This document shows, one piece after another, positions 35,474-64,000 of a stretch of 64,000 nt of DNA. The position numbers were made by a program, and so were the translations under genes. Below the pieces are notes generated by a model that searched no databases, was not told the origin of the DNA, and saw only the letters and a program-made list of their open reading frames with translations. The DNA comes from Prostheceraeus crozeri (lineage: Eukaryota; Platyhelminthes; Polycladida; Euryleptidae), in the NCBI GenBank assembly GCA_907163375.1, contig CAJQUW010007774.1, forward strand, positions 421,934-485,933, read 5' to 3'. Numbering within the stretch: position 1 is the stretch's first letter; the number at the start of each line of letters is the position of its first letter.

Positions 35474-35730
35474 GGTAGAGTGTCGACTCAAAAAGTTATC
35501 TGTATACAGTGAAAATTTCTATATGAAAGGATTCATTTTTCATTCAATTCCGTGGTAATTTCTTCATAGCTGCAAAACTTTGCATATCTCACATTTGGTA
35601 ACAATTACAAACTATATCCCCCTCGAGTTCATTTAATAAAATCCAAAGTGTATTCACATTGGGTATTCAATAGATGCGGAGTTACCACTCTACCCAATAT
35701 ACCTACTCTATATGGACATGATTTTAACTA

Positions 35731-35747
35731 TCCCAATTTCATTTCAG
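35731..35747 (+). promoter_or_regulatory. Splice acceptor 5 nt before the LACT-B ATG (candidate trans-splice site)
   Basis: TCCCAATTTCATTTCAG ends at 35747, then GTACA and the ATG at 35753. It chooses the MGGKK start over longer in-frame readings. Confidence 0.6.
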
Positions 35748-35752
35748 GTACA

Positions 35753-37096
35753 ATGGGTGGAAAGAAGATGATCATGCTCTCCACATCAGTTGTTTGTCTC
35801 GGCTATTTCATTTATAATTTATTTGAATCGATATCTGCAGAGAAAATTGACGGATGGGTGGAGAAAGGATTCGAGGAAGTAAAGGAAGCATATCTTAAAT
35901 TATTTACTACCGGTTTGGATAAAGGAAGCTCATTCGCCGTTCATTATCGTGGTAGACTTGTAGTTCATCTGTGGGGTGGTTGCAAAACTCTAACCTGCAG
36001 TGATATTTGGCGGACGGATACAACTGCATCCATGTTCTCTTCGACGAGCTTTCTAGGCGGAGTTTGCATGGCAATTTTAGCTGATCGAGGATTGCTGGAA
36101 TATTCCAAACCAGTCTCATCTTACTGGCCAGAATTCAGCATGAATGGCAAAGCAGACATAACCGTTGAAGATTTGCTTTCTTACCGTGCAGGCTTGGCCG
36201 GTATTGAACCACCATTAAGTTTAGAAGAGATTGATGTCGGTGGCCCATCTTTGGACCGACGTCTTGCTGAACAAAAACCTTTATGGACTCCTGGCAGTGA
36301 AGCCCATTTTCATCCACTGACGTTTGGTCTCTATGTAGATGAGCTTTTCAAACACATTGATCCTATGGGAAGGTCCTGTGTCAATTTCCTAGAAATGGAG
36401 GTTATAAATCCTCTGAAACTTGACATCAAAATTGGTTTACGTGATTCTAATCAGGAGAAAAGATATGCTCAGCCATATTCATTCAGTAATATTCGTCTGT
36501 TATTACGAGCGTTCTTAACTACCGCAGATTCAGCACCTCGTAGACTTTTAAGTGCTTTCTTCTGGAATCGAAATGATACATACAAGAAAATCATGTCTAC
36601 CTTCGGCGACGCGGTGTATGGATACGCGTTTCACATGACTTACTACCGACGTCTATCACTCTTGTCATCGAATGGAATATCTACTGTGGATAGTCTTGCT
36701 CGATTGATGGGGCTAATAGCTCACCCCTCAGAGAGAGACTTTCCTCATCACACTCTTGTTAGTGGGCATGTTTTGAAACAGTTAATGACGCCCATCACTA
36801 ATTTGAGTTGGATGTCATCGATAAACAATTTATCCTTCGGGAAGGGTTTTGCATTGATTTCTAGTCCTGCGAACACTACGATGGTCGGTTATCCCGGCAC
36901 AGGTGGTCAAATGGCATTTGCTGATCCAGAACATTCCATTGGATTTGCATATCTGACGAATCATTTGTCTCCGTATAGTATGGGCGATGATCCACGCCAT
37001 CTTCAGTTACAAAAGGCTTTGTACAACGTTGTGACTCGTTTGAAAAAAGAGGAAGATTATGCTGAGGAAGATGATGCTGATTATGGAAATAGATGA
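35753..37096 (+). CDS. Serine beta-lactamase-like protein, LACT family (LACT-B), active-site residues lost
   Basis: A single-exon gene for 447 aa, paralogous to LACT-A along its full length. It has an N-terminal membrane segment (about 6-21, MIMLSTSVVCLGYFIY), then KIDGWVEKGF, GSSFAVHYRGRLVVHLWGG, YWPEF.MNGKADITVEDLL and GTGGQMAFADPEHSIGFAYL. The nucleophile motif that is STTK in LACT-A is Ser96-Ser-Thr-Ser99, so the general-base lysine is gone. The YxN-type tyrosine is Phe186 (EAHFHPLT). The His of HRAGL is Tyr144. The frame is intact with no stops and the rest is well conserved, so this looks like a maintained pseudoenzyme rather than a decaying pseudogene. The C-terminus ends in an acidic tail (EEDYAEEDDADY). 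Function unknown; a binding or regulatory role is inference. Confidence 0.9.
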   Translation: MGGKKMIMLSTSVVCLGYFIYNLFESISAEKIDGWVEKGFEEVKEAYLKLFTTGLDKGSSFAVHYRGRLVVHLWGGCKTLTCSDIWRTDTTASMFSSTSFLGGVCMAILADRGLLEYSKPVSSYWPEFSMNGKADITVEDLLSYRAGLAGIEPPLSLEEIDVGGPSLDRRLAEQKPLWTPGSEAHFHPLTFGLYVDELFKHIDPMGRSCVNFLEMEVINPLKLDIKIGLRDSNQEKRYAQPYSFSNIRLLLRAFLTTADSAPRRLLSAFFWNRNDTYKKIMSTFGDAVYGYAFHMTYYRRLSLLSSNGISTVDSLARLMGLIAHPSERDFPHHTLVSGHVLKQLMTPITNLSWMSSINNLSFGKGFALISSPANTTMVGYPGTGGQMAFADPEHSIGFAYLTNHLSPYSMGDDPRHLQLQKALYNVVTRLKKEEDYAEEDDADYGNR

Positions 37097-42383: not shown

Positions 42384-43436
42384 TCACGCGTTTTGGACAA
42401 CTGTTGACTTTCTAGAATCTGGGAAACGTTTTCGATGGGATTCAATTACATGAAATAATTGTCTTTGGTACTCATCCTTCGTCAAAATGGGAAGATAGTC
42501 CTGCATGAGTGCCACTCCTCTCTCGGCAAAGTCATTGGTCACTTTGAGAGAATGTACTCTGTCCCGACACGTAGTATAATCTTCGCAGTCACTCCATATG
42601 GATGGATCGGCATCAAGAAATCCCGATGACGATCCAATCAAGGAGAAAAATCGTCGTGTGGTACTGGTTACGAAATCCGGAATAGTTTTTGATAATAGAT
42701 CAGATTCATGTAAGTCCAGATTTAGTCGTTTATTAGGCCGAGTACTTCCTTCTCTCTGCAAGGATTCTACCATCTTTCTTTTCGTCGTAATATCAATGGA
42801 ATCATCGAAGTAAGACAGACCAACCAACTCCTCTGACAAATACCAGAGATGATTTCTGAATGAATTCGCAGCTGCCTGGGAGATGGCACGGTCATTATAC
42901 AGAAGTAGATCCTTCAGAAATTTCAGATCATTTTTTGGAGCAGATGCGGCGCTCGAGGTGGTGAACCAGTAAGGGATGTACAATGAAACAATGAAGGTTA
43001 CGAACTTCTCTATTCCGTCTTTTTCTGATTTAGTGAGATGAAACTGGTTACGGAATAAATATATCTTCATTGAGTAGATTATCTTCGCCATCCATCTGGC
43101 ACGATGGCAAGCACCGGGACGTTGGATACGCACTCCTCGGGGAGGTTCTTCCCGGACGATAAGTAATGTCAGCTCAAGAAGTTCTTGATAATCATCTCTG
43201 GGCTGTTTATTATCCAATTGATGTTCACAAAAATCAATCAGCTCATTTACTCGTAAAGGAAGATTATCAAGTGGTGAGTATTCTTTCGCATCAATTGAAG
43301 CCCATTTCTGTTTGAATCGTTTGAATATTGGGATATCTGGGCCATTCGATACTATTTTAGTGCAAGCATTGAAAACTTTATCGATCACAGTAGTAAGAAA
43401 ACGGCGAACACTCGACCGGCCCCTCTGGAACGACAT
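42384..43436 (-). CDS. Uncharacterised invertebrate-type protein (about 350 aa), probably mobile-element associated
   Basis: A clear globular, helical protein. Landmarks: VIDKVFNACTKIVSNGPDIP, DDYQELLELTLLIV, the motif GACHRARWMAKIIYSMKIYL, FRNQFHLTKSE, FVTFIVSLYIPYWF, FRNHLWYLSEELVGLSYFDD, LKVTNDFAERGVALMQDY and LTKDEYQRQLFHVIE, ending SRKSTVVQNA. I recall uncharacterised proteins with ARWMAK, HLWYLSEE and NDxAERG motifs being widespread and multicopy in hydrozoan and arthropod genomes, which suggests a mobile element. No catalytic motif or family name can be assigned. The open frame continues upstream to 43793, but that part is satellite sequence, so I place the start at the Met at 43436. 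True coding may begin a little further in, near 43400. Confidence 0.6.
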   Translation of the reverse strand: MSFQRGRSSVRRFLTTVIDKVFNACTKIVSNGPDIPIFKRFKQKWASIDAKEYSPLDNLPLRVNELIDFCEHQLDNKQPRDDYQELLELTLLIVREEPPRGVRIQRPGACHRARWMAKIIYSMKIYLFRNQFHLTKSEKDGIEKFVTFIVSLYIPYWFTTSSAASAPKNDLKFLKDLLLYNDRAISQAAANSFRNHLWYLSEELVGLSYFDDSIDITTKRKMVESLQREGSTRPNKRLNLDLHESDLLSKTIPDFVTSTTRRFFSLIGSSSGFLDADPSIWSDCEDYTTCRDRVHSLKVTNDFAERGVALMQDYLPILTKDEYQRQLFHVIESHRKRFPDSRKSTVVQNA

Positions 43437-43631
43437 AGGTCTGTCGTGGTGTGCCGGCCAGGTTGGTTCGCAAACTGTTCGCTGACGTCCCCCCCCCTCT
43501 GGAACGACAGAGTGTCGTGGTGGACTTGGGCGGCCGCCAGGATTAGTCTTGAGGCTATAGTGTGTGATGTTTTTCGTGCAATCTGCTGAATGTTGGGTTG
43601 TAAAATGGGCTGTTTCGAGTGGAAGGAGTGG
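43437..43631. other. Boundary region between the uncharacterised gene and the satellite array
   Basis: Contains two copies of CCCCTCTGGAACGAC..GTCGTGGTG (one starting at about 43420, the other at about 43494) and stray pieces of the satellite motif CTGACGTCCCCCC. It looks like scrambled satellite edge joined to the gene's 5' flank. Confidence 0.5.
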
Positions 43632-44219
43632 TCGGATGAGAAAACGGAGGCCAGATTCGGATTCAGCGTGAAATTCTGCATCCGTATGGTGAATTTGAAC
43701 GCAATCGGAGAGAAAAAATTTTCGCTGACGTCCCCCCCCTCTGGACAGCTTGCTTCGATTTTGGCTTCCAGTGGACGGATTTTGTCGTGCCATAGCTCGT
43801 TTGAAAGCTAAGAGTGAGACAAATTCAGTGAAAGAATCGGCTTGTTCCTATCTGTCTTCGTTTAGATGTGAGACGCCATTTAAGATTTTGGGACATTGTC
43901 GAAAAACGACAGAGTTAGAATTTGGGACGTTTTGGGCTGTAGCTTCAAAACGAAGCATCGGATTGGAAAACGGATTTCAGATTTGGAATCAGCGTGAAAT
44001 TCTGTATCTGTATGGTGAGTTTCAAGTCAATCGGAGAGAAAAAATTTTCAACATTTTTCGAAAAAACGACAGAGTTAGAATTTGGGACGTTTTGGTGTGT
44101 AGCGCCCAAACGAAGCATCGGATGAGAAAACGGAGGCCAGATTCGGATTCAGCGTGAAATTCTGCATCGGTATGGTGAATTTGAACGCCATCGGAGAGAA
44201 AAAATTTTCGCTGACGTCC

Positions 44220-45780
44220 CCCCTGGACTGCTTGCTTCGATTTTGGCTTCCAGTGGACGGATTTTGTCGTGCCATAGCTCGTTTGAAAGCTAAGAGTGAG
44301 ACAAATTCAGTGAAAGAAACGGCTTGTTCCTATCTGGCTTCATTCAAAAGTTAGAGCGGTTACAAGATTTTAGGTCGGAGCTCACCTGAAAAAATCCTAA
44401 GTGTCAGAGTGACTTTGTATGGGTAAAATTTTGAAAATTTTCCGAAGTGTGGAATTTCGACCTGGGACCGTCACCAAAACATTTTTCATCAAATTTTCAA
44501 ATTTCACTGACCTCCCCCCCTCTGGACAGCTAGCTTCAATCTTGGCTTCCAGTGGATGGATTTTGTCGTGCCATAGCTCGTTTGAAAGCTAAGAGTGAGA
44601 CAAATTCAGTGAAAGAAACGGCTTGTTCCTATCTGGCTTCATTCAAAAGTTAGAGCGGTTACAAGATTTTAGGTCGGAGCTCACCTGAAAAAATCCTAAG
44701 TGTCAGAGTGGCTTTGTATGGGTAAAATTTTGAAAATTTTCCAAAGTGTGGAATTTCGACCTGGGGCCGTCACCAAAACATTTTTCATCAAATTTTCAAA
44801 TTTCACTGACCTCCCCCCCCTCTGGACAGCTAGCTTCAATCTTGGCTTCCAGTGGATGGATTTTGTCGTGCCATAGCTCGTTTGAAAGCTAAGAGTGAGA
44901 CAAATTCAGTGAAAGAAACGGCTTGTTCCTATCTGGCTTCATTCAAAAGTTAGAGCGGTTACAAGATTTTAGGTCGGAGCTCACCTGAAAAAATCCTAAG
45001 TGTCAGAGTGACTTTGTATGGGTAAAATTTTGAAAATTTTCCGAAGTGTGGAATTTCGACCTGGGACCGTCACCAAAACATTTTTCATCAAATTTTCAAA
45101 TTTCACTGACCTCCCCCCCTCTGGACAGCTAGCTTCAATCTTGGCTTCCAGTGGATGGATTTTGTCGTGCCATAGCTCGTTTGAAAGCTAAGAGTGAGAC
45201 AAATTCAGTGAAAGAAACGGCTTGTTCCTATCTGGCTTCATTCAAAAGTTAGAGCGGTTACAAGATTTTAGGTCGGAGCTCGCTCACCTGAAAAAATCCT
45301 AAGTGTCAGAGTGGCTTTGTATGGGTAAAATTTTGAAAATTTTCCAAAGTGTGGAATTTCGACCTGGGACCGTCACCAAAACATTTTTCATCAAATTTTC
45401 AAATTTCACTGACCTCCCCCCCCTCTGGACAGCTAGCTTCAATCTTGGCTTCCAGTGGATGGATTTTGTCGTGCCATAGCTCGTTTGAAAGCTAAGAGTG
45501 AGACAAATTCAGTGAAAGAAACGGCTTGTTCCTATCTGGCTTCATTCAAAAGTTAGAGCGGTTACAAGATTTTAGGTCGGAGCTCACCTGAAAAAATCCT
45601 AAGTGTCAGAGTGGCTTTGTATGGGTAAAATTTTGAAAATTTTCCAAAGTGTGGAATTTCGACCTGGGGCCGTCACCAAAACATTTTTCATCAAATTTTC
45701 AAATTTCACTGACCTCCCCCCCTCTGGACAGCTTGCTTCGATCTTGGCTTCCAGTGGACGGATTTTGTCGTGCGATAGCT
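44220..45780 (+). repeat. Divergent 300-bp satellite sub-block (type C units)
   Basis: Five successive units of 298-303 bp share the first part of segment X, then diverge at GGCTTCATTCAAAAGTTAG into a different roughly 210-bp segment (GCGGTTACAAGATTTTAGGT ... TTTCATCAAATTTTCAAATT). A sixth unit of this type lies at about 46170-46470. This type is absent from the remaining 17 kb. Confidence 0.9.
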
Positions 45781-46170
45781 CGTTTGAAAGCTAAGAGTGA
45801 GACAAATTCAGTGAAAGAATCGGCTTGTTCCTATCTGTCTTCGTTTAGATGTGAGACGCCATTTAAGATTTTGGGACATTGTCGAAAAACGACAGAGTTA
45901 GAATTTGGGACGTTTTGGGCTGTAGCTTCAAAACGAAGCATCGGATTGGAAAACGGATTTCAGATTTGGAATCAGCGTGAAATTCTCTATCTGTATGGTG
46001 AGTTTCAAGTCAATCGGTGAGAAAAAATTTTCAACATTTTTCGAAAAACCGACAGAGTTAGAATTTGGGACGTTTTGGTGTGTAGCGCCCAAACGAATTT
46101 GAACGCCATCAAAAATTTTCGCTGACGTCCCCCCCCTCTGGACAGCTTGCTTCGATTTTGGCTTCCAGTG
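45757..46170 (+). repeat. XYY satellite unit with internal deletion (about 416 bp)
   Basis: One XYY-type unit sits between type C blocks. Its second Y module lacks about 70 bp around AACGAATTTGAACGCC, giving a 416-bp spacing instead of 485. Confidence 0.75.
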
Positions 46171-46796
46171 GACGGATTTTGTCGTGCCATAGCTCGTTTG
46201 AAAGCTAAGAGTGAGACAAATTCAGTGAAAGAAACGGCTTGTTCCTATCTGTCTTCATTCAAAAGTTAGAGCGGTTACAAGATTTTAGGTCGGAGCTCGC
46301 TCACCTGAAAAAATCCTAAGTGTCAGAGTGACTTTGTATGGGTAAAATTTTGAAAATTTTCCGAAGTGTGGAATTTCGACCTGGGACCGTCACCAAAACA
46401 TTTTTCATCAAATTTTCAAATTTCACTGACCTCCCCCCCCTCTGGACAGCTAGCTTCAATCTTGGCTTCCAGTGGATGGATTTTGTCGTGCCATAGCTCG
46501 TTTGAAAGCTAAGAGTGAGACAAATTCAGTGAAAGAATCGGCTTGTTCCTATCTGTCTTCGTTTAGATGTGAGACGCCATTTAAGATTTTGGGACATTGG
46601 CGAAAAACGACAGAGTTAGAATTTGGGACGTTTTGGGCTGTAGCTTCAAAACGAAGCATCGGATGAGAAAACGGATTTCAGATTTGGAATCAGCGTGAAA
46701 TTCTGCATCGGTATGGTGAGTTTCAAGTCAATCGGAGAGAAAAATTTTCGCTGACGTCCCCCCCCCCTGGACAGCTCGCTTCGATCTTGGCTTCCA

Positions 46797-47122
46797 GTGG
46801 ACGGATTTTGTCGTGCCATAGCTCGTTTGAAAGCTAAGAGTGAGACAAATTCACTGAAAGAAACGGCTTGTTCATATCTGTCTTCGTTTAGATGTGAGAC
46901 GCCATTTAAGATTTTGGGACATTGGCGAAAAACGACAGAGTTAGAATTTTGGACGTTTTTGGGCTGTAGCGTCAAAACGAAGCATCGGATGGGAAAACGG
47001 ATTTCAGATTTGGAATCAGCGTCAAATTCTCTATCAACATGGTGAGTTTCAAGTCAATCGGAGAGAAAAATTTTCGCTGACGTCCCCCCCCTCTGGAGAG
47101 CTCGCTTCAATCTTGGCTTCTA
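46797..47122 (+). repeat. Representative XY satellite unit (326 bp)
   Basis: Contains one X and one Y module. GCTTC-AAAAC-GAAGC-type short hairpins and a TATGGTGAGTTTCAAG donor-like string are present in array units. Confidence 0.9.
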
Positions 47123-47447
47123 GTGGACGGATTTTGTCGTGCCATAGCTCGTTTGAAAGCTAAGAGTGAGACAAATTCACTGAAAGAATCGGCTTGTTCA
47201 TATCTGTCTTCGTTTAGATGTGAGACGCCATTTAAGATTTTGGGACATTGGCGAAAAACGACAGAGTTAGAATTTGGGACGTTTTGGGCTGTAGCGTCAA
47301 AACGAAGCATCGGATGGGAAAACGGATTTCAGATTTGGAATCAGCGTGAAATTCTCTATCAACATGGTGAGTTTCAAGTCAATCGGAGAGAAAAATTTTC
47401 GCTGACGTCCCCCCCCTCTGGAGAGCTCGCTTCGATCTTGGCTTCTA

Positions 47448-47933
47448 GTGGACGGATTTTGTCGTGCCATAGCTCGTTTGAAAGCTAAGAGTGAGACAAA
47501 TTCACTGAAAGAATCGGCTTGTTCATATCTGTCTTCGTTTAGATGTGAGACGCCATTTAAGATTTTGGGACATTGGCGAAAAACGACAGAGTTAGAATTT
47601 TGGACGTTTTGGGCTGTAGCGTCAAAACGAAGCATCGGATGGGAAAACGGATTTCAGATTTGGAATCAGCGTCAAATTCTCTATCTGTATGGTGAGTTTC
47701 AAGTCAATCGGCGAGAAAAAATTTTCAACATTTTTCGAAAAAACGACAGAGTTAGAATTTGGGACGTTTTTGGGCTGTAGCGCCAAAACGAACCATCGGA
47801 TGAGAAAACGGAGGCCAGATTCGGATTCAGCGTGAAATTCTGCATCGGTATGGTGAATTTGAACGCAATCGGAGAGAAAAATTTTCGCTGACGTCCCCCC
47901 CCTCTGGACAGCTCGCTTCGATCTTGGCTTCTA
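47448..47933 (+). repeat. Representative XYY satellite unit (486 bp)
   Basis: Contains one X and two Y modules. The first Y joins the second at TTTTCAACATTTTTCGAAAA. The second Y of such units carries GGAGGCCAGATTCGG where the first usually has GGATTTCAGATTTGG, so the two Y positions have diverged and then been co-amplified as a higher-order unit. Confidence 0.9.
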
Positions 47934-50900
47934 GTGGACGGATTTTGTCGTGCCATAGCTCGTTTGAAAGCTAAGAGTGAGACAAATTCACTGAAAGAAA
48001 CGGCTTGTTCATATCTGTCTTCGTTTAGATGTGAGACGCCATTTAAGATTTTGGGACATTGGCGAAAAAACGACAGAGTTAGAATTTGGGACGTTTTGGG
48101 CTGTAGCTTCAAAACGAAGCATCGGATTGGAAAACGGATTTCAGATTTGGAATCAGCGTGAAATTCTCTATCAACATGGTGAGTTTCAAGTCAATCGGAG
48201 AGAAAAATTTTCGCTGACGTCCCCCCCCTCTGGAGAGCTCGCTTCGATCTTGGCTTCCAGTGGACGGATTTTGTCGTGCCATAGCTCGTTTGAAAGCTAA
48301 GAGTGAGACAAATTCACTGAAAGAATCGGCTTGTTCATATCTGTCTTCGTTTAGATGTGAGACGCCATTTAAGATTTTGGGACATTGGCGAAAAAACGAC
48401 AGAGTTAGAATTTGGGACGTTTTGGGCTGTAGCTTCAAAACGAAGCATCGGATTGGAAAACGGATTTCAGATTTGGATTCAGCGTGAAATTCTGCATCGG
48501 TATGGTGAGTTTCAAGTCAATCGGAGAGAAAAATTTTCGCTGACGTCCCCCCCCCCTCTGGACAGCTCGCTTCGATCTTGGCTTCTAGTGGACGGATTTT
48601 GTCGTGCCATAGCTCGTTTGAAAGCTAAGAGTGAGACAAATTCACTGAAACAAACGGCTTGTTCATATCTGTCTTCGTTTAGATGTGAGACGCCATTTAA
48701 GATTTTGGACATTGGCGAAAAACGACAGAGTTAGAATTTGGGACGTTTTGGGCTGTAGCGCCAAAACGAAGCATCGGATTGGAAAACGGATTTCAGATTT
48801 GGAATCAGCGTGAAATTCTCTATCAACATGGTGAGTTTCAAGTCAATCGGAGAGAAAAAGTTTCGCTGACGTCCCCCCCCTCGGGAGAGCTCGCTTCGAT
48901 CTTGGCTTCCAGTGGACGGATTTTGTCGTGCCATAGCTCGTTTGAAAGCTAAGAGTGAGACAAATTCACTGAAAGAATCGGCTTGTTCATATCTGTCTTC
49001 GTTTAGATGTGAGACGCCATTTAAGATTTTGGGACATTGGCGAAAAACGACAGAGTTCGAATTTGGGACGTTTTGGGCTGTAGCTTCAAAACGAAGCATC
49101 GGATTGGAAAACGGATTTCAGATTTGGAATCAGCGTCAAATTCTCTATCTGTATGGTGAGTTTCAAGTCAATCGGCGAGAAAAAATTTTCAACATTTTTC
49201 GAAAAAACGACAGAGTTAGAATTTGGGACGTTTTTTGGCTGTAGCGCCAAAACGAACCATCGGATGAGAAAACGGAGGCCAGATTCGGATTCAGCGTGAA
49301 ATTCTGCATCGGTATGGTGAGTTTCAAGTCAATCGGAGAGAAAAATTTTCGCTGACCCCCCCCCTCGGGAGAGCTCGCTTCGATCTTGGCTTCCAGTGGA
49401 CGGATTTTGTCGTGCCATAGCTCGTTTGAAAGCTAAGAGTGAGACAAATTCACTGAAAGAATCGGCTTGTTCATATCTGTCTTCGTTTAGATGTGAGACG
49501 CCATTTAAGATTTTGGGACATTGGCGAAAAACGACAGAGTTAGAATTTGGGACGTTTTGGGCTGTAGCGCCAAAACGAAGCATCGGATGGGAAAACGGAT
49601 TTCAGATTTGGAATCAGCGTCAAATTCTCTATCAACATGGTGAGTTTCAAGTCAATCGGAGAGAAAAATTTTCGCTGACGTCCCCCCCCTCTGGAGAGCT
49701 CGCTTCGATCTTGGCTTCTAGTGGACGGATTTTGTCGTGCCATAGCTCGTTTGAAAGCTAAGAGTGAGACAAATTCACTGAAAGAATCGGCTTGTTCATA
49801 TCTGTCTTCGTTTAGATGTGAGACGCCATTTAAGATTTTGGGACATTGGCGAAAAACGACAGAGTTAGAATTTTGGACGTTTTGGGCTGTAGCGTCAAAA
49901 CGAAGCATCGGATGGGAAAACGGATTTCAGATTTGGAATCAGCGTCAAATTTTCTATCTGTATGGTGAGTTTCAAGTCAATCGGCGAGAAAAAATTTTCA
50001 ACATTTTTCGAAAAAACGACAGAATTAGAATTTGGGACGTTTTTGGGCTGTAGCGCCAAAACGAAGCATCGGATGGGAAAACGGAGGCCAGATTTGGAAT
50101 CAGCGTCAAATTCTCTATCAACATGGTGAGTTTCAAGTCAATCGGAGAGAAAAATTTTCGCTGACGTCCCCCCCCTCTGGAGAGCTCGCTTCGATCTTGG
50201 CTTCTAGTGGACGGATTTTGTCGTGCCATAGCTCGTTTGAAAGCTAAGAGTGAGACAAATTCACTGAAAGAATCGGCTTGTTCATATCTGTCTTCGTTTA
50301 GATGTGAGACGCCATTAAAGATTTTGGGACATTGGCGAAAAACGACAGAGTTAGAATTTGGGACGTTTTGGGCTGTAGCTTCAAAACGAAGCATCGGATG
50401 GGAAAACGGATTTCAGATTTGGAATCAGCGTGAAATTCTCTATCAACATGGTGAGTTTCAAGTCAATCGGAGAGAAAAAATTTTCGCTGACGTCCCCCCC
50501 CTCGGGAGAGCTCGCTTCGATCTTGGCTTCCAGTGGACGGATTTTGTCGTGCCATAGCTCGTTTGAAAGCTAAGAGTGAGACAAATTCAGTGAAATAATC
50601 GGCTTGTTCATATCTGTCTTCGTTTAGATGTGAGACGCCATTTAAGATTTTGGGACATTGGCGAAAAACGACAGAGTTAGAATTTGGGACGTTTTGGGCT
50701 GTAGCTTCAAAACGAAGCATCGGATTGGAAAACGGATTTCAGATTTGGAATCAGCGTGAAATTCTCTATCTGTATGGTGAGTTTCAAGTCAATCGCGAGA
50801 AAAAATTTTCAACATTTTTCGAAAAAACGACAGAGTTAGAATTTGGGACGTTTTGGGCTGTAGCGCCAAAACGAACCATCGGATGAGAAAACGGAGGCCA

Positions 50901-53900
50901 GATTCGGATTCAGCGTGAAATTCTGCATCGGTATGGTGAGTTTCAAGTCAATCGGAGAGAAAAAGTTTCGCTGACCCCCCCCCCTCGGGAGAGCTCGCTT
51001 CGATCTTGGCTTCCAGTGGACGGATTTGTCGTGCCATAGCTCGTTTGAAAGCTAAGAGTGAGACAAATTCACTGAAAGAAACGGCTTGTTCATATCTGTC
51101 TTCGTTTAGATGTGAGACGCCATTTAAGATTTTGGGACATTGGCGAAAAACGACAGAGTTAGAATTTGGGACGTTTTGGGCTGTAGCGCCAAAACGAAGC
51201 ATCGGATGAGAAAACGGAGGCCGGATTCGGATTCAGCGTGAAATTCTCTATCTGTATGGTGAGTTTCAAGTCAATCGGAGAGAAAAAATTTTCGCTGACG
51301 TCCCCCCCCTCTGGAGAGCTCGCTTCGATCTTGGCTTCCAGTGGACGGATTTTGTCGTGCCATAGCTCGTTTGAAAGCTAAGAGTGAGACAAATTCACTG
51401 AAACAAACGGCTTGTTCATATCTGTCTTCGTTTAGATGTGAGACGCCATTTAAGATTTTGGGACATTGGCGAAAAACGACAGAGTTAGAATTTGGGACGT
51501 TTTGGGCTGTAGCGTCAAAACGAAGCATCGGATGGGAAAACGGATTTCAGATTTGGAATCAGCGTGAAATTCTCTATCTGTATGGTGAGTTTCAAGTCAA
51601 TCGGCGAGAAAAAATTTTCAACATTTTTCGAAAAAACGACAGAGTTAGAATTTGGGACGTTTTGGGCTGTAGCGCCAAAACGAAGCATCGGATGAGAAAA
51701 CGGAGGCCAGATTCGGATTCAGCGTGAAATTCTGCATCGGTATGGTGAGTTTCAAGTCAATCGGAGAGAAAAAGTTTCGCTGACGTCCCCCCCTCGGGAG
51801 AGCTCGCTTCGATCTTGGCTTCCAGTGGACGGATTTTGTCGTGCCATAGCTCGTTTGAAAGCTAAGAGTGAGACAAATTCACTGAAAGAAACGGCTTGTT
51901 CATATCTGTCTTCGTTTAGATGTAAGACGCCATTTAAGATTTTGGGACATTGGCGAAAAACGACAGAGTTAGAATTTTGGACGTTTTGGGCTGTAGCGTC
52001 AAAACGAAGCATCGGATGGGAAAACGGATTTCAGATTTGGAATCAGCGTGAAATTCTCTATCTGTATGGTGAGTTTCAAGTCAATCGGCGAGAAAAAATT
52101 TTCAACATTTTTCGAAAAAACGACAGAGTTAGAATTTGGGACGTTTTGGGCTGTAGCGCCAAAACGAAGCATCGGATGAGAAAACGGAGGCCAGATTCGG
52201 ATTCAGCGTGAAATTCTGCATCGGTATGGTGAATTTGAACGCAATCGGAGAGAAAAATTTTCGCTGACGTCCCCCCCCCTCGGGAGAGCTCGCTTCGATC
52301 TTGGCTTCTAGTGGACGGATTTTGTCGTGCCATAGCTCGTTTGAAAGCTAAGAGTGAGACAAATTCAGTGAAACAAACGGCTTGTTCATATCTGTCTTCG
52401 TTTAGATGTGAGACGCCATTTAAGATTTTGGGACATTGGCGAAAAACGACAGAGTTAGAATTTGGGACGTTTTGGGCTGTAGCGCCAAAACGAAGCATCG
52501 GATTGGAAAACGGATTTCAGATTTGGAATCAGCGTGAAATTCTCTATCTGTATGGTGAGTTTCAAGTCAATCGGAGAGAAAAAATTTTCGCTGACGTCCC
52601 CCCCCTCGGGAGAGCTAGCTTCGATTTTGGCTTCCAGTGGACGGATTTTGTCGTGCCATAGCTCGTTGAAAGCTAAGAGTGAGACAAATTCACTGAAAGA
52701 ATCGGCTTGTTCATATCTGTCTTCGTTTAGATGTGAGACGCCATTTAAGATTTTGGGACATTGGCGAAAAACGACAGAGTTAGAATTTGGGACGTTTTGG
52801 GCTGTAGCGCCAAAACGAAGCATCGGATTGGAAAACGGATTTCAGATTTGGAATCAGCGTGAAATTCTCTATCGGTATGGTGAGTTTCAAGTCAATCGGA
52901 GAGAAAAATTTTCGCTGACGTCCCCCCCCCTCTGGACAGCTCGCTTCGATCTTGGCTTCTAGTGGACGGATTTTGTCGTGCCATAGCTCGTTTGAAAGCT
53001 AAGAGTGAGACAAATTCACTGAAAGAAACGGCTTGTTCATATCTGTCTTCGTTTAGATGTGAGACGCCATTTAAGATTTTGGGACATTGGCGAAAAACGA
53101 CAGAGTTAGAATTTGGGACGTTTTGGGCTGTAGCGTCAAAACGAAGCATCGGATTGGAAAACGGATTTCAGATTTGGAATCAGCGTGAAATTCTCTATCT
53201 GTATGGTGAGTTTCAAGTCAATCGGCGAGAAAAAATTTTCAACATTTTTCGAAAAAACGACAGAGTTAGAATTTGGGACGTTTTGGGCTGTAGCGCCAAA
53301 ACGAAGCATCGGATGAGAAAACGGAGGCCAGATTCGGATTCAGCGTGAAATTCTGCATCGGTATGGTGAATTTGAAGTCAATCGGAGAGAAAAATTTTCG
53401 CTGACGTCCCCCCCCCCTCTGGAGAGCTCGCTTCGATCTTGGCTTCCAGTGGACGGATTTTGTCGTGCCATAGCTCGTTTGAAAGCTAAGAGTGAGACAA
53501 ATTCACTGAAAGAATCGGCTTGTTCATATCTGTCTTCGTTTAGATGTGAGACCCATTTAAGATTTTGGGACATTGGCGAAAAACGACAGAGTTAGAATTT
53601 GGGACGTTTTGGGCTGTAGCGCCAAAACGAAGCATCGGATTGGAAAACGGATTTCAGATTTGGAATCAGCGTGAAATTCTCTATCTGTATGGTGAGTTTC
53701 AAGTCAATCGGAGAGAAAAATTTTCGCTGACGTCCCCCCCCTCTGGAGAGCTCGCTTCGATCTTGGCTTCTAGTGGACGGATTTTGTCGTGCCATAGCTC
53801 GTTTGAAAGCTAAGAGTGAGACAAATTCACTGAAAGAATCGGCTTGTTCATATCTGTCTTCGTTTAGATGTGAGACGCCATTTAAGATTTTGGGACATTG

Positions 53901-56900
53901 GCGAAAAAAACAGAGTTAGAATTTGGGACGTTTTGGGCTGTAGCTTCAAAACGAAGCATCGGATTGGAAAACGGATTTCAGATTTGGAATCAGCGTGAAA
54001 TTCTCTATCTGTATGGTGAGTTTCAAGTCAATCGGCGAGAAAAAATTTTCAACATTTTTCGAAAAAACGACAGAGTTAGAATTTGGGACGTTTTGGTGTG
54101 TAGCGCCAAAACGAACCATCGGATGAGAAAACGGAGGCCAGATTCGGATTCAGCGTGAAATTCTGCATCGGTATGGTGAGTTTCAAGTCAATCGGAGAGA
54201 AAAATTTTCGCTGACGTCCCCCCCCCTCTGGAGAGCTCGCTTCGATCTTGGCTTCCAGTGGACGGATTTTGTCGTGCCATAGCTCGTTTGAAAGCTAAGA
54301 GTGAGACAAATTCACTGAAAGACTCGGCTTGTTCATATCTGTCTTCGTTTAGATGTGAGACGCCACTTAAAATTTTGGGACATTGGCGAAAAACGACAGA
54401 GTTAGAATTTGGGACGTTTTGGGCTGTAGCGTCAAAACGAAGCATCGGATTGGAAAACGGATTTCAGATTTGGAATCAGCGTGAAATTCTCTATCTGTAT
54501 GGTGAGTTTCAAGTCAATCGGCGAGAAAAAATTTTCAACATTTTTCGAAAAAACGACAGAGTTAGAATTTGGGACGTTTTGGGCTGTAGCGCCAAAACGA
54601 AGCATCGGATGGAAAACGGAGGCCAGATTCGGATTCAGCGTGAAATTCTGCATCGGTATGGTGAATTTGAACGCAATCGGAGAGAAAAATTTTCGCTGAC
54701 GTCCCCCCCCTCGGGAGAGCTCGCTTCGATCTTGGCTTCTAGTGGACGGATTTTGTCGTGCCATAGCTCGTTTGAAAGCTAAGAGTGAGACAAATTCACT
54801 GAAAGAATCGGCTTGTTCATATCTGTCTTCGTTTAGATGTGAGACGCCATTTAAGATTTTGGGACATTGGCGAAAAACGACAGAGTTAGAATTTGGACGT
54901 TTTGGGCTGTAGCTTCAAAACGAAGCATCGGATTGGAAAACGGATTTCAGATTTGGAATCAGCGTGAAATTCTCTATCTGTATGGTGAGTTTCAAGTCAA
55001 TCGGAGAGAAAAAATTTTCAACATTTTTCGAGAAAACGACAGAGTTAGAATTTGGGACGTTTTGGTGTGTAGCGCCAAAACGAAGCATCGGATGAGAAAA
55101 CGGAGGCCAGATTCGGATTCAGCGTGAAATTCTGCATCGGTATGGTGAGTTTCAAGTCAATCGGAGAGAAAAATTTTCGCTGACGTCCCCCCCCTCTGGA
55201 GAGCTCGCTTCGATCTTGGCTTCCAGTGGACGGATTTTGTCGTGCCATAGCTCGTTTGAAAGCTAAGAGTGAGACAAATTCACTGAAACAAACGGCTTGT
55301 TCATATCTGTCTTCGTTTAGATGTGAGACGCCATTTAAGATTTTGGGACATTGGCGAAAAACGACAGAGTTAGAATTTGGACGTTTTGGGCTGTAGCTTC
55401 AAAACGAAGCATCGGATTGGAAAACGGATTTCAGATTTGGAATCAGCGTGAAATTCTCTATCTGTATGGTGAGTTTCAAGTCAATCGGCGAGAAAAAATT
55501 TTCAACATTTTTCGAAAAAACGACAGAGTTAGAATTTGGGACGTTTTGGGCTGTAGCGCCAAAACGAACCATCGGATGAGAAAACGGAGGCCAGATTCGG
55601 ATTCAGCGTGAAATTCTGCATCGGTATGGTGAATTTGAACGCAATCGGAGAGAAAAATTTTCGCTGACGTCCCCCCCCTCGGGAGAGCTCGCTTCGATCT
55701 TGGCTTCCAGTGGACGGATTTTGTCGTGCCATAGCTCGTTTGAAAGCTAAGAGTGAGACAAATTCACTGAAAGAATCGGCTTGTTCATATCTGTCTTCGT
55801 TTAGATGTGAGACGCCATTTAAGATTTTGGGACATTGGCGAAAAACGACAGAGTTAGAATTTTGGACATTTTGGGCTGTAGCGTCAAAACGAAGCATCGG
55901 ATGGGAAAACGGATTTCAGATTTGGAATCAGCGTGAAATTCTCTATCAACATGGTGAGTTTCAACTCAAACGGGAAGAAAAATTTTTGCTGACGTCCCCC
56001 CCCTCTGGAGAGCTCGCTTCGATCTTGGCTTCTAGTGGACGGATTTTGTCGTGCCATAGCTCGTTTGAAAGCTAAGAGTGAGACAAATTCACTGAAAGAA
56101 TCGGCTTGTTCATATCTGTCTTCGTTTAGATGTGAGACGCCATTTAAGATTTTGGGACATTGGCGAAAAACGACAGAGTTAGAATTTTGGGACGTTTTGG
56201 GCTGTAGCGTCAAAACGAAGCATCGGATGGGAAAACGGATTTCAGATTTGGAATCAGCGTCAAATTCTCTATCTGTATGGTGAGTTTCAAGTCAATGCGG
56301 TATGGTGAGTTTCAAGTCAATCGGAGAGAAAAATTTTCGCTGACGTCCCCCCCCTCTGGAGAGCTCGCTTCGATCTTGGCTTCTAGTGGACGGATTTTGT
56401 CGTGCCATAGCTCGTTTGAAAGCTAAGAGTGAGACAAATTCACTGAAAGAATCGGCTTGTTCATATCTGTCTTCGTTTAGATGTTAGACGCCATTTAAGA
56501 TTTTGGGACATTGGCGAAAAACGACAGAGTTAGAATTTGGGACGTTTTGGGCTGTAGCTTCAAAACGAAGCATCGGATTGGAAAACGGATTTCAGATTTG
56601 GAATCAGCGTGAAATTCTCTATCTGTATGGTGAGTTTCAAGTCAATCGGCGAGAAAAAATTTTCAACATTTTTCGAAAAAACGACAGAGTTAGAATTTGG
56701 GACGTTTTGGGCTGTAGCGCCAAAACGAACCATCGGATGAGAAAACGGAGGCCAGATTCGGATTCAGCGTGAAATTCTGCATCGGTATGGTGAATTTGAA
56801 CGCAATCGGAGAGAAAAATTTTCGCTGACGTCCCCCCCCTGTGGAGAGCTCGCTTTGATCTTGGCTTCTAGTGGACGGATTTTGTCGTGCCATAGCTCGT

Positions 56901-59900
56901 TTGAAAGCTAAGAGTGAGACAAATTCACTGAAAGAATCGGCTTGTTCATATCTGTCTTCGTTTAGATGTGAGACGCCATTTAAGATTTTGGGACATTGGC
57001 GAAAAACGACAGAGTTAGAATTTGGGACGTTTTGGGCTGTAGCTTCAAAACGAAGCATCGGATTGGAAAACGGATTTCAGATTTGGAATCAGCGTGAAAT
57101 TCTCTATCTGTATGGTGAGTTTCAAGTCAATCTGCGAGAAAAAATTTTCAACATTTTTCGAAAAAACGACAGAGTTAGAATTTGGGACGTTTTGGGCTGT
57201 AGCGCCAAAACGAACCATCGGATGAGAAAACGGAGGCCAGATTCGGATTCAGCGTGAAATTCTGCATCGGTATGGTGAGTTTCAAGTCAATCGGAGAGAA
57301 AAATTTTCGCTGACGTCCCCCCCCTCGGGAGAGCTCGCTTCGATCTTGGCTTCTAGTGGACGGATTTTGTCGTGCCATAGCTCGTTTGAAAGCTAAGAGT
57401 GAGACAAATTCACTGAAAGAATCGGCTTGTTCATATCTGTCTTCGTTTAGATGTGAGACGCCATTTAAGATTTTGGGACATTGGCGAAAAACGACAGAGT
57501 TAGAATTTGGGACGTTTTGGGCTGTAGCGTCAAAACGAAGCATCGGATGGGAAAACGGATTTCAGATTTGGAATCAGCGTCAAATTCTCTATCTGTATGG
57601 TGAGTTTCAAGTCAATCGGCGAGAAAAAATTTTCAACATTTTTCGAAAAAACGACAGAGTTAGAATTTGGGACGTTTTGGTGTGTAGCGCCCAAACGAAG
57701 CATCGGATGAGAAAACGGAGGCCAGATTCGGATTCAGCGTGAAATTCTGCATCGGTATGGTGAGTTTCAAGTCAATCGGAGAGAAAAATTTTCGCTGACG
57801 TCCCCCCCCTCTGGACAGCTCGCTTCGATCTTGGCTTCTAGTGGACGGATTTTGTCGTGCCATAGCTCGTTTGAAAGCTAAGAGTGAGACAAATTCACTG
57901 AAAGAATCGGCTTGTTCATATCTGTCTTCGTTTAGATGTGAGACGCCATTTAAGATTTTGGGACATTGGCGAAAAACGACAGAGTTAGAATTTGGGACGT
58001 TTTGGGCTGTAGCGCCAAAACGAAGCATCGGATGGGAAAACGGATTTCAGATTTGGAATCAGCGTGAAATTCTCTATCAACATGGTGAGTTTCAAGTCAA
58101 TCGGAGAGAAAAATTTTCGCTGACGTCCCCCCCCTCTGGAGAGCTCGCTTCGATCTTGGCTTCTAGTGGACGGATTTTGTCGTGCCATAGCTCGTTTGAA
58201 AGCTAAGAGTGAGACAAATTCACTGAAAGAAACGGCTTGCTCATATCTGTCTTCGTTTAGATGTAAGACGCCATTTAAGATTTTGGGACATTGGCGAAAA
58301 ACGACAGAGTTAGAATTTTGGACGTTTTGGTCTGTTGCGTCAAAACGAAGCATCGGATGGGAAAACGGATTTCAGATTTGGAATCAGCGTCAAATTCTCT
58401 ATCTGTATGGTGAGTTTCAAGTCAATCGGCGAGAAAAAATTTTCAACATTTTTCGAAAAAACGACAGAGTTAGAATTTGGGACGTTTTGGGCTGTAGCGC
58501 CAAAACGAAGCATCGGATGAGAAAACGGAGGCCAGATTCGGATTCAGCGTGAAATTCTGCATCGGTATGGTGAGTTTCAAGTCAATCGGAGAGAAAAATT
58601 TTCGCTGACGTCCCCCCCCCTCTGGAGAGCTCGCTTCGATCTTGGCTTCTAGTGGACGGATTTTGTCGTGCCATAGCTCGTTTGAAAGCTAAGAGTGAGA
58701 CAAATTCACTGAAAGAATCGGCTTGTTCATATCTGTCTTCGTTTAGATGTGAGACGCCATTTAAGATTTTGGGACATTGGCGAAAAACGACAGAGTTAGA
58801 ATTTGGGACGTTTTGGCTGTAGCTTCAAAACGAAGCATCGGATGGGAAAACGGATTTCAGATTTGGAATCAGCGTGAAATTCTCTATCAACATGGTGAGT
58901 TTCAAGTCAATCGGAGAGAAAAATTTTCGCTGACGTCCCCCCCCTCGGGAGAGCTCGCTTCGATCTTGGCTTCTAGTGGACGGATTTTGTCGTGCCATAG
59001 CTCGTTTGAAAGCTAAGAGTGAGACAAATTCACTGAAACAAACGGCTTGTTCATATCTGTCTTCGTTTAGATGTAAGACGCCATTTAAGATTTTGGGACA
59101 TTGGCGAAAAACGACAGAGTTAGAATTTTGGACGTTTTGGGCTGTAGCGTCAAAACGAAGCATCGGATGGGAAAACGGATTTCAGATTTGGAATCAGCGT
59201 CAAATTCTCTATCTGTATGGTGAGTTTCAAGTCAATCGGCGAGAAAAAATTTTCAACATTTTTCGAAAAAACGACAGAGTTAGAATTTGGGACGTTTTGG
59301 GCTGTAGCGCCAAAACGAAGCATCGGATGAGAAAACGGAGGCCAGATTCGGATTCAGCGTGAAATTCTGCATCGGTATGGTGAGTTTCAAGTCAATCGGA
59401 GAGAAAAATTTTCGCTGACGTCCCCCCCCTGGGGAGAGCTCGCTTCGATCTTGGCTTCCAGTGGACGGATTTTGTCGTGCCATAGCTCGTTTGAAAGCTA
59501 AGAGTGAGACAAATTCACTGAAAGAATCGGCTTGTTCATATCTGTCTTCGTTTAGATGTGAGACGCCATTTAAGATTTTGGGACATTGGCGAAAAACGAC
59601 AGAGTTAGAATTTGGGACGTTTTGGGCTGTAGCGCCAAAACGAAGCATCGGATGGGAAAACGGATTTCAGATTTGGAATCAGCGTGAAATTCTCTATCAA
59701 CATGGTGAGTTTCAAGTCAATCGGAGAGAAAAATTTTCGCTGACGTCCCCCCCCTCTGGAGAGCTCGCTTCGATCTTGGCTTCTAGTGGACGGATTTTGT
59801 CGTGCCATAGCTCGTTTGAAAGCTAAGAGTGAGACAAATTCAGTGAAACAAACGGCTTGCTCATATCTGTCTTCGTTTAGATGTAAGACGCCATTTAAGA

Positions 59901-62900
59901 TTTTGGGACATTGGCGAAAAACGACAGAGTTAGAATTTTGGACGTTTTGGGCTGTAGCGTCAAAACGAAGCATCGGATGGGAAAACGGATTTCAGATTTG
60001 GAATCAGCGTCAAATTCTCTATCTGTATGGTGAGTTTCAAGTCAATCGGCGAGAAAAAATTTTCAACATTTTTCGAAAAAACGACAGAGTTAGAATTTGG
60101 GACGTTTTGGGCTGTAGCGCCAAAACGAAGCATCGGATGAGAAAACGGAGGCCAGATTCGGATTCAGCGTGAAATTCTGCATCGGTATGGTGAGTTTCAA
60201 GTCAATCGGAGAGAAAAATTTTCGCTGACGTCCCCCCCCCTCTGGAGAGCTCGCTTCGATCTTGGCTTCCAGTGGACGGATTTTGTCGTGCCATAGCTCG
60301 TTTGAAAGCTAAGAGTGAGACAAATTCACTGAAAGAATCGGCTTGTTCATATCTGTCTTCGTTTAGATGTAAGACGCCATTTAAGATTTTGGGACATTGG
60401 CGAAAAACGACAGAGTTAGAATTTGGGACGTTTTGGGCTGTAGCTTCAAAACGAAGCATCGGATGAGAAAACGGATTTCAGATTTGGAATCAGCGTGAAA
60501 TTCTCTATCAACATGGTGAGTTTCAAGTCAATCGGAGAGAAAAATTTTCGCTGACGTCCCCCCCCTCTGGAGAGCTCGCTTCGATCTTGGCTTCTAGTGG
60601 ACGGATTTTGTCGTGCCATAGCTCGTTTGAAAGCTAAGAGTGAGACAAATTCAGTGAAACAAACGGCTTGTTCATATCTGTCTTCGTTTAGATGTAAGAC
60701 GCCATTTAAGATTTTGGGACATTGGCGAAAAACGACAGAGTTAGAATTTTGGACGTTTTGGGCTGTAGCGTCAAAACGAAGCATCGGATTGGAAAACGGA
60801 TTTCAGATTTGGAATCAGCGTGAAATTCTCTATCTGTATGGTGAGTTTCAAGTCAATCGGCGAGAAAAAATTTTCAACATTTTTCGAAAAACGACAGAGT
60901 TAGAATTTGGGACGTTTTGGGCTGTAGCGCCCAAACGAAGCATCGGATGAGAAAACGGAGGCCAGATTCGGATTCAGCGTGAAATTCTGCATCGGTATGG
61001 TGAGTTTCAAGTCAATCGGAGAGAAAAATTTTCGCTGACGTCCCCCCCCCTCTGGAGAGCTCGCTTCGATCTTGGCTTCTAGTGGACGGATTTTGTCGTG
61101 CCATAGCTCGTTTGAAAGCTAAGAGTGAGACAAATTCCGTGAAACAAACGGCTTGCTCATATCTGTCTTCGTTTAGATGTAAGACGCCATTTAAGATTTT
61201 GGGACATTGGCGAAAAACGACAGAGTTAGAATTTTGGACATTTTGGGCTGTAGCGTCAAAACGAAGCATCGGATGGGAAAACGGATTTCAGATTTGGAAT
61301 CAGCGTGAAATTCTCTATCTGTATGGTGAGTTTCAAGTCAATCGGCGAGAAAAAATTTTCAACATTTTTCGAAAAAACGACAGAGTTAGAATTTGGGACG
61401 TTTTGGGCTGTAGCGCCAAAACGAACCATCGGATGAGAAAACGGAGGCCAGATTCGGATTCAGCGTGAAATTCTGCATCGGTATGGTGAGTTTCAAGTCA
61501 ATCGGAGAGAAAAATTTTCGCTGACGTCCCCCCCCTCTGGAGAGCTCGCTTCGATCTTGGCTTCTAGTGGACGGATTTTGTCGTGCCATAGCTCGTTTGA
61601 AAGCTAAGAGTGAGACAAATTCACTGAAAGAATCGGCTTGTTCATATCTGTCTTCGTTTAGATGTGAGACGCCATTTAAGATTTTGGGACATTGGCGAAA
61701 AAACGACAGAGTTAGAATTTGGGACGTTTTGGGCTGTAGCTTCAAAACGAAGCATCGGATTGGAAAACGGATTTCAGATTTGGAATCAGCGTGAAATTCT
61801 GCATCGGTATGGTGAGTTTCAAGTCAATCGGAGAGAAAAATTTTCGCTGACGTCCCCCCCCTCTGGACAGCTCGCTTCGATCTTGGCTTCTAGTGGACGG
61901 ATTTTGTCGTGCCATAGCTCGTTTGAAAGCTAAGAGTGAGACAAATTCACTGAAAGAATCGGCTTGTTCATATCTGTCTTCGTTTAGATGAGAGACGCCA
62001 TTTAAGATTTTGGGACATTGGCGAAAAACGACAGAGTTAGAATTTGGGACGTTTTTGGGCTGTAGCGCCAAAACGAAGCATCGGATGAGAAAACGGATTT
62101 CAGATTTGGAATCAGCGTGAAATTCTCTATCTGTATGGTGAGTTTCAAGTCAATCGGAGAGAAAAAATTTTCAACATTTTTCGAAAAAACGACAGAGTTA
62201 GAATTTGGGACGTTTTGGTGTGTAGTGCCAAAACGAACCATCGGATGAGAAAACGGAGGCCAGATTCGGATTCAGCGTGAAATTCTGCATCGGTATGGTG
62301 AGTTTCAAGTCAATCGGAGAGAAAAATTTTCGCTGACGTCCCCCCCTCTGGAGAGCTCGCTTCGATCTTGGCTTCTAGTGGACGGATTTTGTCGTGCCAT
62401 AGCTCGTTTGAAAGCTAAGAGTGAGACAAATTCACTGAAAGAATCGGCTTGTTCCTATCTGTCTTCGTTTAGATGTGAGACGCCATTTAAGATTTTGGGA
62501 CATTGGCGAAAAACGACAGAGTTAGAATTTGGGACGTTTTGGGCTGTAGCGTCAAAACGAAGCATCGGATGGGAAAACGGATTTCAGATTTGGAATCAGC
62601 GTGAAATTCTCTATCTGTATGGTGAGTTTCAAGTCAATCGGCGAGAAAAAATTTTCAACATTTTTCGAAAAAACGACAGAGTTAGAATTTGGGACGTTTT
62701 GGGCTGTAGCGCCAAAACGAACCATCGGATGAGAAAACGGAGGCCAGATTCGGATTCAGCGTGAAATTCTGCATCGGTATGGTGAATTTCAAGTCAATCG
62801 GAGAGAAAAATTTTCGCTGACGTCCCCCCCTCTGGAGAGCTCGCTTCGATCTTGGCTTCTAGTGGACGGATTTTGTCGTGCCATAGCTCGTTTGAAAGCT

Positions 62901-63187
62901 AAGAGTGAGACAAATTCACTGAAAGAATCGGCTTGTTCATATCTGTCTTCGTTTAGATGTGAGACGCCATTTAAGATTTTGGGACATTGGCGAAAAACGA
63001 CAGAGTTAGAATTTGGGACGTTTTGGGCTGTAGCTTCAAAACGAAGCATCGGATGAGAAAACGGATTTCAGATTTGGAATCAGCGTGAAATTCTGCATCG
63101 GTATGGTGAGTTTCAAGTCAATCGGAGAGAAAATTTTCGCTGACGTCCCCCCCCCTCTGGACAGCTCGCTTCGATCTTGGCTTCTAG

Positions 63188-63830
63188 TGGACGGATTTTG
63201 TCGTGCCATAGCTCGTTTGAAAGCTAAGAGTGAGACAAATTCACTGAAAGAATCGGCTTGTTCCTATCTGTCTTCGTTTAGATGTGAGACGCCATTTAAG
63301 ATTTTGGGACATTGGCGAAAAACGACAGAGTTAGAATTTGGGACGTTTTGGGCTGTAGCGTCAAAACGAAGCATCGGATTGGAAAACGGATTTCAGATTT
63401 GGAATCAGCGTGAAATTCTCTATCTGTATGGTGAGTTTCAAGTCAATCGGCGATAAAAATTTTCAACATTTTTCGAAAAAACGACAGAGTTAGAATTTGG
63501 GACGTTTTGGTGTGTAGCGCCCAAACGAAGCATCGGATGGGAAAACGGAGGCCAGATTCGGATTCAGCGTGAAATTCTGCATCCGTATGGTGAGTTTCAA
63601 GGCAATCGGCGAGAAAAAATTTTCAACATTTTTCGAAAAAACGACAGAGTTAGTATTTGGGACGTTTTGGTGTGTAGCGCCAAAACGAACCATCGGATGG
63701 GAAAACGGAGGCCAGATTCGGATTCAGCGTGAAATTCTGCATCGGTATGGTGAATTTGAACGCAATCGGAGAGAAAAATTTTCGCTGACTCCCCTCCCCT
63801 CTGGAGAGCTCGCTTCGATCTTGGCTTCTA
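63188..63830 (+). repeat. XYYY satellite unit (643 bp)
   Basis: The only unit with three Y modules. The next landmark segment X (from 63831) is altered: the usual GTGCCATAGCTCGTTTGAAA is replaced by AGTGAGTTGTCATTTGACT, which may signal approach to another array boundary. Confidence 0.8.
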
Positions 63831-64000
63831 GTGGACGGATTTTGTCGAGTGAGTTGTCATTTGACTGCTAAGAGTGAGACAAATTCAGTGAAACAAACGG
63901 CTTGTTCATATCTGTCTTCGTTTAGATGTGAGACGCCATTTAAGATTTTGGGAGATTGGCGAAAAACGACAGAGTTAGAATTTGGGACGTTTTGGGCTGT

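Follow-up and report, generated by a model that had tools for sequence, protein, structure and literature searches.

The organization of tandem modules was analyzed in 64,000 nucleotides of genomic DNA of the flatworm Prostheceraeus crozeri, hereafter the window (bases 421934-485933 of contig C6459, in an assembly of 2.05 Gb and 14165 contigs). The window holds a tandem array whose repeat scores are far above threshold, built mainly of two kinds of module, X and Y, each close to 160 bp. We read this array, with a probability of about 0.87, as the left-hand terminal inverted repeat of a virus-like mobile element of ~23 kb (Maverick/Polinton) in which the subterminal tandem modules have expanded without restraint to form a satellite. 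In ordinary copies of the element a few modules lie inside the ends: X, Y and a different segment, Z, which follows X in some units. Out-of-register exchange between modules, or its equivalent during replication, would have extended such runs to ~20 kb or more, in the window and separately in at least two other arrays. Since exchange in module register changes unit lengths by one Y (~160 bp), the ladder of 325, 485 and 644 bp would be a by-product, and its striking 162-bp step is explained without selection on length. The features of the array are distributed as follows:

43383-43388, no strand: host hexamer GATCAC, candidate target-site duplication, from the sequence and from 6-bp duplications at other copies; its second copy lies outside the contig
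43389-43411, forward: exact 23-bp left end of Maverick/Polinton, AGTAGTAAG..., recurring across the genome, and seen with different outer flanks in 12 of 20 loci compared (within four edits)
43389-43631, forward: terminal domain of the inverted repeat, with the motif TTCGCTGACGTC(C)nTCTGGA at 43478, which recurs at Y-to-X junctions
43632-43739, forward: truncated Y module; in the window as in other copies, the array sets in near Y position 59
43740-44223, forward: first X-Y1-Y2 trimer; the core of its X has an identical counterpart in a dispersed element
44224-45722, forward: run of five X-Z units, each 297-304 bp long, which do not fit the 162-bp ladder by tandem repeat and module analysis
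45723-46136, forward: X-Y1-Y2 unit of 414 bp, the second Y shortened to 95 bp
46137-46440, forward: sixth X-Z unit, 304 bp
46441-64000, forward: main array of 43 units (20 X-Y dimers, 21 X-Y1-Y2 trimers, one tetramer, one unit cut by the contig end)
56164-56354, forward: dimer Y of 191 bp, with ~25 extra bases
57810-61050, forward: four tandem 810-bp blocks (X-Y, X-Y1-Y2), 98.3-99.0% identical
63156-63799, forward: single 644-bp unit X-Y1-Ym-Y2; the body of Ym is mostly of Y2 type and its tail of Y1 type

Element ends and Maverick/Polinton identity

The first-pass annotation of the window had placed the start of the repeat at 43632. A truncated Y does begin there, but the true start is the end of the element, at 43389, and the ~240 bp before the array onset precede modules, wholly or partly, in other loci too. 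Twenty comparison loci were picked from matches to module DNA, and therefore carry modules by selection; in 12 of them, as in the window, AGTAGTAAGAAAACGGCGAACAC is found at the element end within four edits, with differing outer sequence. Over the whole genome, exact matches to the 23-bp end number 1036 in forward and 1033 in reverse orientation, and those to the reversed pattern used as a control 0 and 0. Among the 100 genomic places listed for this end we observed at least 26 adjacent forward-reverse pairs (52 places). Their spacing is 19-29 kb in 23 cases, and 11.5, 34.4 and 35.1 kb in the others, in keeping with the ~15-25 kb of Maverick/Polinton elements. Flanks were compared for ten pairs, and in eight of them a perfect 6-bp target duplication is present. 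The inverted AGTAGT...ACTACT termini correspond to the (AGT)2//(ACT)2 ends of Maverick/Polinton. Both ends were compared in three elements, and in all three the terminal domain and module sequence are shared between them in inverted orientation, the best shared block measuring 356, 682 and 605 bp at 94.9, 95.5 and 96.2% identity; the number of X differs between the two ends of each element.

The gene content of one copy, on contig C4177, was established from four separate stretches. This copy encodes a retroviral-type integrase core (rve, 2.6e-9) and a chromodomain (Chromo, 2.9e-7), whose two frames overlap, as well as a C2H2 frame (8.8e-8) and an open frame of 816 aa with an Endonuclease_7 segment (Pfam, 4.4e-7; endonuclease VII in PHROGs). 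From motifs recognized by eye, we take the 816-aa frame to be a putative protein-primed polymerase. On the basis of its ends, duplications, size, integrase and layout, the element is a Maverick/Polinton. The exact 23-bp end was not found in viral contigs; a search there for relatives of the 816-aa frame gave one pattern match and no confirmed one.

Two end loci deserve a separate mention. The C347 pair (L046/L047) is the only scored pair devoid of a 6-bp duplication, and its right outer flank, AGAGTCTACTAC, partly resembles the end motif. At L033 (C5:38399-38448) the contig stops exactly at the final base of the element end, which may correspond to an assembly break or to a free linear end.

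The terminal-domain motif TTCGCTGACGTC(C)nTCTGGA is matched 43 times in the window under a relaxed pattern and 30 times under a strict one, counting its occurrence in the terminal domain. The modules may be kept for a job in the element, as sites for the integrase or the terminal protein or as an enhancer, with only the runaway length being neutral. Module sequence is indeed present at both ends and, in 7 of the 20 loci, stands directly upstream of a TATA-like and a splice-donor-like sequence; the recurrence of the motif at Y-to-X junctions also recalls the Tetris element, which, in the passages available, shares 37 bp between terminal domain and repeats (PMC4079207). Against such a job, many units of other lineages match X only from beyond its first 13-28 bp, and in the C224 array the junction is altered. 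We regard this functional role as possible, with the odds against it. In L009, L010 and L012-L015 the array ends in Z followed directly by an inverted Z, a palindromic junction, and not in the promoter-like sequence of some other copies.

Module order and the 162-bp ladder

The array was cut at every X landmark, 51 landmarks giving 50 intervals. Measured between module starts, X-to-X intervals are of 324-328 bp in 19 cases, 483-487 bp in 22 and 644 bp in one. The ladder of 325, 485 and 643 bp described in the first-pass annotation therefore accounts for 42 of the 50 intervals and leaves eight aside: six of 297-304 bp, in which X is followed by Z, one of 414 bp, and one of 351 bp, which is due to the extra bases of the dimer Y at 56164-56354. 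The succession of X and one, two or three Y that it had proposed was seen as such. X without the C-run measures 158-160 bp in all 45 copies, inner Y 158-160 bp in all 25, and Y preceding X, C-run included, 164-168 bp in 42 of 44, the remaining two being of 95 and 191 bp. The order string, in which two module boundaries were set by hand, contains 45 X, 24 Y1, 24 Y2, 20 dimer Y, one Ym, six X-Z units and one cut Y. The irregular mixing of dimers and trimers (19 versus 21 in the earlier count) is borne out by this string except at 57810-61050, where an 810-bp block made of a dimer and a trimer occurs four times in succession, with 98.3-99.0% identity between blocks, compared with averages of 97.3% for dimers and 97.7% for trimers.

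We consider it very unlikely that the order of dimers and trimers is an artefact of assembly, by collapsed or mis-joined repeats. The contig of the window does end inside the array, at base 485933 (window 64000), and the two other long arrays considered below are similarly placed, one with modules at the start of its contig (C47) and one near the end of its contig (C224). However, the units differ from each other by many changes, the 810-bp block is repeated four times at 98-99% and not 100%, and trimers, X-Z units and, elsewhere, dimers are present in short copies too.

Two unrelated modules of almost the same length had also been taken to suggest length selection, X and Y possibly being held near 160 bp by nucleosomes phased on the array; the length of each is indeed nearly constant in the window. 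Results obtained elsewhere in the genome speak against this. At 19 other loci (83 intervals) we counted 62 intervals of 293-313 bp, 17 of 485-492 bp, three of 505 bp and one of 593 bp, and the other long arrays contain units of 495 and 307 bp, so that module lengths unrelated to 162 bp, named in the first-pass annotation as a ground for refutation, are found; dimers of ~320-324 bp are nevertheless present in the three elements with both ends compared. In the window itself eight of the 50 intervals are off the ladder. A 10-bp periodicity of AA/TT/TA is absent, 64 to 285 of 300 shuffles reaching the observed power in the four sequences analyzed. Neither of the signs of a nucleosome-phased satellite was found: unit lengths are not all multiples of one nucleosomal length and there is no rotational signal. 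The near-constant module lengths in the window are explained by recent common descent of the copies, which diverge by 2-4% within Y classes, and that X and Y are both near 160 bp may be due to chance. Length selection by nucleosome phasing is accordingly highly improbable.

The description of X and Y as unrelated agrees with our comparisons. Same-strand similarity is not significant, since the score is reached by 124 and 123 of 1000 shuffles for X and Y1 and by 97 and 170 of 1000 for X and Y2 (two scorings each), and by 191 of 1000 in a global alignment. Common ancestry of X and Y, which was suspected by eye as the origin of their equal length, is not supported by these tests. For X against the reverse complement of Y1 the figures are 376 and 26 of 1000 under the two scorings, and for Z against Y1 53 and 28 of 1000. 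The end of X is matched by the initial 50 bases of the Z part, with 1 of 1000 under one scoring and 71 of 1000 under the other.

Probable growth by exchange and other long arrays

The composition of the Y modules points to exchange between neighbours. At 14 diagnostic body columns and in the tail, the dimer Y are mosaics of the two inner types: 19 of the 20 carry Y1-type letters at columns 79-88 and all 20 a Y2-type tail, with several distinct switch points. Ym, in the 644-bp unit, is composed almost the other way round, as in a reciprocal product. Adjacent units were compared by permutation. A likeness of neighbours somewhat above chance is present for X (59 of 5000 permutations as low) and Y1 (94 of 5000), is less clear for dimer Y (226 of 5000) and is absent for Y2 (832 of 5000). 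Among X modules, likeness is greatest at a distance of two units (0 of 2000 permutations as low). Together with the fourfold 810-bp block, the mosaic Y and the reciprocal-type Ym, this likeness supports the growth by module-sized unequal exchange that had been suggested, and unequal exchange in module register is the simplest mechanism.

A second source of the irregular mixture is probably the union of two terminal-repeat lineages, over half of the dimers carrying the Y of another lineage. In this comparison 19 of the 20 dimer Y (all but the 191-bp one) and 23 of the 24 Y2 (all but the 95-bp one) were used, and an AAC variant is present in 11 of the 19 dimer Y. Outside the dimers, the module nearest to these 11 belongs to the C47 or C224 array in nine cases, to a dimer-type element in one and to a local Y1 in one, whereas the other eight are nearest to a local Y1 (seven) or a local Y2 (one). 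The AAC letters are not private to the window array, since within a 24-mer they occur 1455 and 1276 times in the genome. The idea that all dimers are deletion products of local Y1 and Y2 was rejected, as ten of the 11 AAC dimer Y are nearest to other arrays or to dimer-type elements; these ten look like a second lineage. On this basis we interpret the mixture of dimers and trimers as the product of two joined lineages and of exchange between neighbours.

Three long arrays were compared, those of the window, C224 and C47. In C224 a terminal domain, its end having one difference, is followed by a 495-bp unit; among the matches listed the array runs to at least 212.9 kb, and it is present in both stretches examined beyond, 213-216 and 219-222 kb. 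It would measure ~41 kb if unbroken, and is still running 3.8 kb before the contig end, in the final stretch examined. At ~19.0 kb in C47 lies a terminal domain (75% identity over 185 bp), followed by X-Y dimers whose periods are 307-326 bp in each of the two stretches examined (15-20 kb and 1-2 kb); modules extend to the first bases of the contig, giving ~19 kb if unbroken. The X cores diverge by 2.0% within the window (n=45), 1.7% within C47 (n=16) and 0.13% within the C224 interior (n=12), and by 4.9-5.5% between the three arrays. With ties counted, the nearest neighbour of an X lies in its own array for 42 of 45 in the window, 14 of 16 in C47 and 12 of 12 in C224. The length filter used here excluded the X modules from the left stretch of C224 and those from X-Z units. 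Under a laxer filter, which adds the X-Z-type X and the C224 left edge, divergence is 1.0% within C47 and 0.9% within that edge. For the X at 43740, 45723 and 46441, the distance to dispersed elements is equal to or smaller than that to the array. On balance, this pattern of divergence fits local growth inside separate element copies.

The order of events could also be the opposite one, a pre-existing satellite having been captured and spread by a Maverick, with the long arrays as the older state. Such a scenario would account for modules in arrays that greatly exceed in length the short terminal repeats found elsewhere, and has a parallel in Triatoma infestans, in which a Polinton-like sequence lies beside satellite arrays and a role in their spreading was suggested in the passages available (PMC5983683). 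We nonetheless find it quite unlikely. All three long arrays adjoin a terminal domain of the element and, among the three looked at, none is without an element end; the arrays are ~5% apart and less divergent within, and the three outer units of the window resemble dispersed elements.

Several results weigh against our reading of the array as a Maverick/Polinton terminal repeat grown into a satellite, and they concern the element as well as its growth. Of the 100 listed ends, 48 have no partner among the matches listed, and the two flank-compared pairs outside the eight are one without a duplication and one without a right flank, its contig stopping at the end. In the C4177 copy the 816-aa frame matches no polymerase family in Pfam and nothing in PDB, and the PDB search with the rve frame returned homeodomains only and no integrase. 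The protease-like frame (Peptidase_C48, 0.0012, 19.1 bits for a cut-off of 20.7; Peptidase_C5, 0.045) and the ATPase-like frame (Pox_A32, 0.022, 14.7 bits for a cut-off of 22.8; PHROGs ATPase, 0.0062) have scores below the cut-off in Pfam, and the capsid-like frames picked by eye gave no capsid match. Because the contig ends inside the array, no gene, right end or second target duplication is seen for the window copy, and the body of the element would lie beyond the contig end. The X tree yields a clean clade only for C224, the window modules not forming one clade. Under the laxer filter, divergence within the window rises to 4.5%, compared with 5.6-6.5% to the other arrays, and the left edge of C224 is 2.5% from its interior, for which reason a perfectly uniform C224 array was dropped. 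Two inner window X are identical to the X of a dispersed element and to array neighbours alike. Finally, host recombination on the one hand, and slippage or strand switching during replication of the element on the other, fit the data alike. A further version, in which the arrays would be a working part of the Maverick, as repeated sites for its integrase, terminal protein or promoter, and the long ones would arise from strand switching between ends during element copying, seems to us unlikely; if true, a virus-like element would manufacture satellites.

Known systems and other features of the window

The closest precedent is Tetris of Drosophila virilis, which, according to the passages available (PMC4079207), has internal tandem repeats in its terminal inverted repeats and is associated with the TIR-220 satellite. 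There, too, kilobase arrays grew inside the element, unequal crossing-over was proposed, and a stretch is shared by terminal domain and repeats. Tetris is however a non-autonomous, non-coding foldback element with 8-10-bp target duplications, whereas the present one belongs to Maverick/Polinton, has coding capacity and makes 6-bp duplications; it contains Z in addition to two unrelated modules, and its arrays measure ~19-41 kb. Repeats in both terminal repeats, varying copy number and long arrays joined to an element end were all found here, in three elements and three arrays. Growth of the Tetris type is a label for this mode of growth and not for kinship, as the characters of the Tetris family itself are lacking.

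Vertebrate Maverick/Polinton elements, as described in passages of PMC8097293, have the same (AGT)2//(ACT)2 ends, 6-bp duplications, a retroviral-like integrase and gene blocks on opposite strands. Intact ones measure 12.7-24.6 kb with terminal repeats of 46-1447 bp, compared here with mostly 19-29 kb among the listed pairs and one terminal repeat of more than 20 kb; those passages describe no tandem modules in the terminal repeats. In Triatoma infestans the available passages report contact of Polinton-like sequence and satellite, that is adjacency only (PMC5983683), whereas here the modules belong to the terminal repeats of the element. The 154-bp repeats of Helitron-2 in D. virilis likewise are an abundant tandem repeat derived from part of a transposon, in this case a Helitron, devoid of terminal inverted repeats (PMC12910113, in part). 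Among the satellites of the oyster, one has similarity to Polinton (PMC8268682), and among those of the locust one is similar to Polinton coding sequence (PMC4935994), both as given in passages of these papers. In the titles and passages of the open-access literature, which leaves most subscription journals outside, no description was found of a satellite grown from Maverick terminal repeats.

The origin of satellites is usually hard to trace, and several stages coexist here in one genome: short module runs in the copies examined, module numbers that differ from one end of an element to the other, and long arrays, three of them, of ~19-41 kb. The conversion of transposon into satellite known from Tetris would in this way be extended to a virus-like Maverick. 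What had first been noted about the array is in sum confirmed in part, and the interpretation given to it supported in part.

The remainder of the window was considered last; no RNA family reached its gathering score. A 469-aa open frame (42384-43793, reverse strand) spans host DNA, the element end and the beginning of the array. Since element DNA makes up its first part, an older frame may have been interrupted by the insertion. A 349-aa open frame with mariner/Mos1-type transposase domains (PF01359, 1.7e-23; HTH_48) lies at 9716-10765 on the reverse strand. Two long uninterrupted forward frames with a beta-lactamase domain (PF00144), at 18089-19456 and 35648-37096, seem to be duplicates of one host gene, of serine beta-lactamase-like type. 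The 202-aa forward frame at 26715-27323 has no Pfam match; it looks like the GIY-YIG end of a Penelope-like element. An AGGG tetranucleotide repeat of 56.5 copies occupies 14057-14281.

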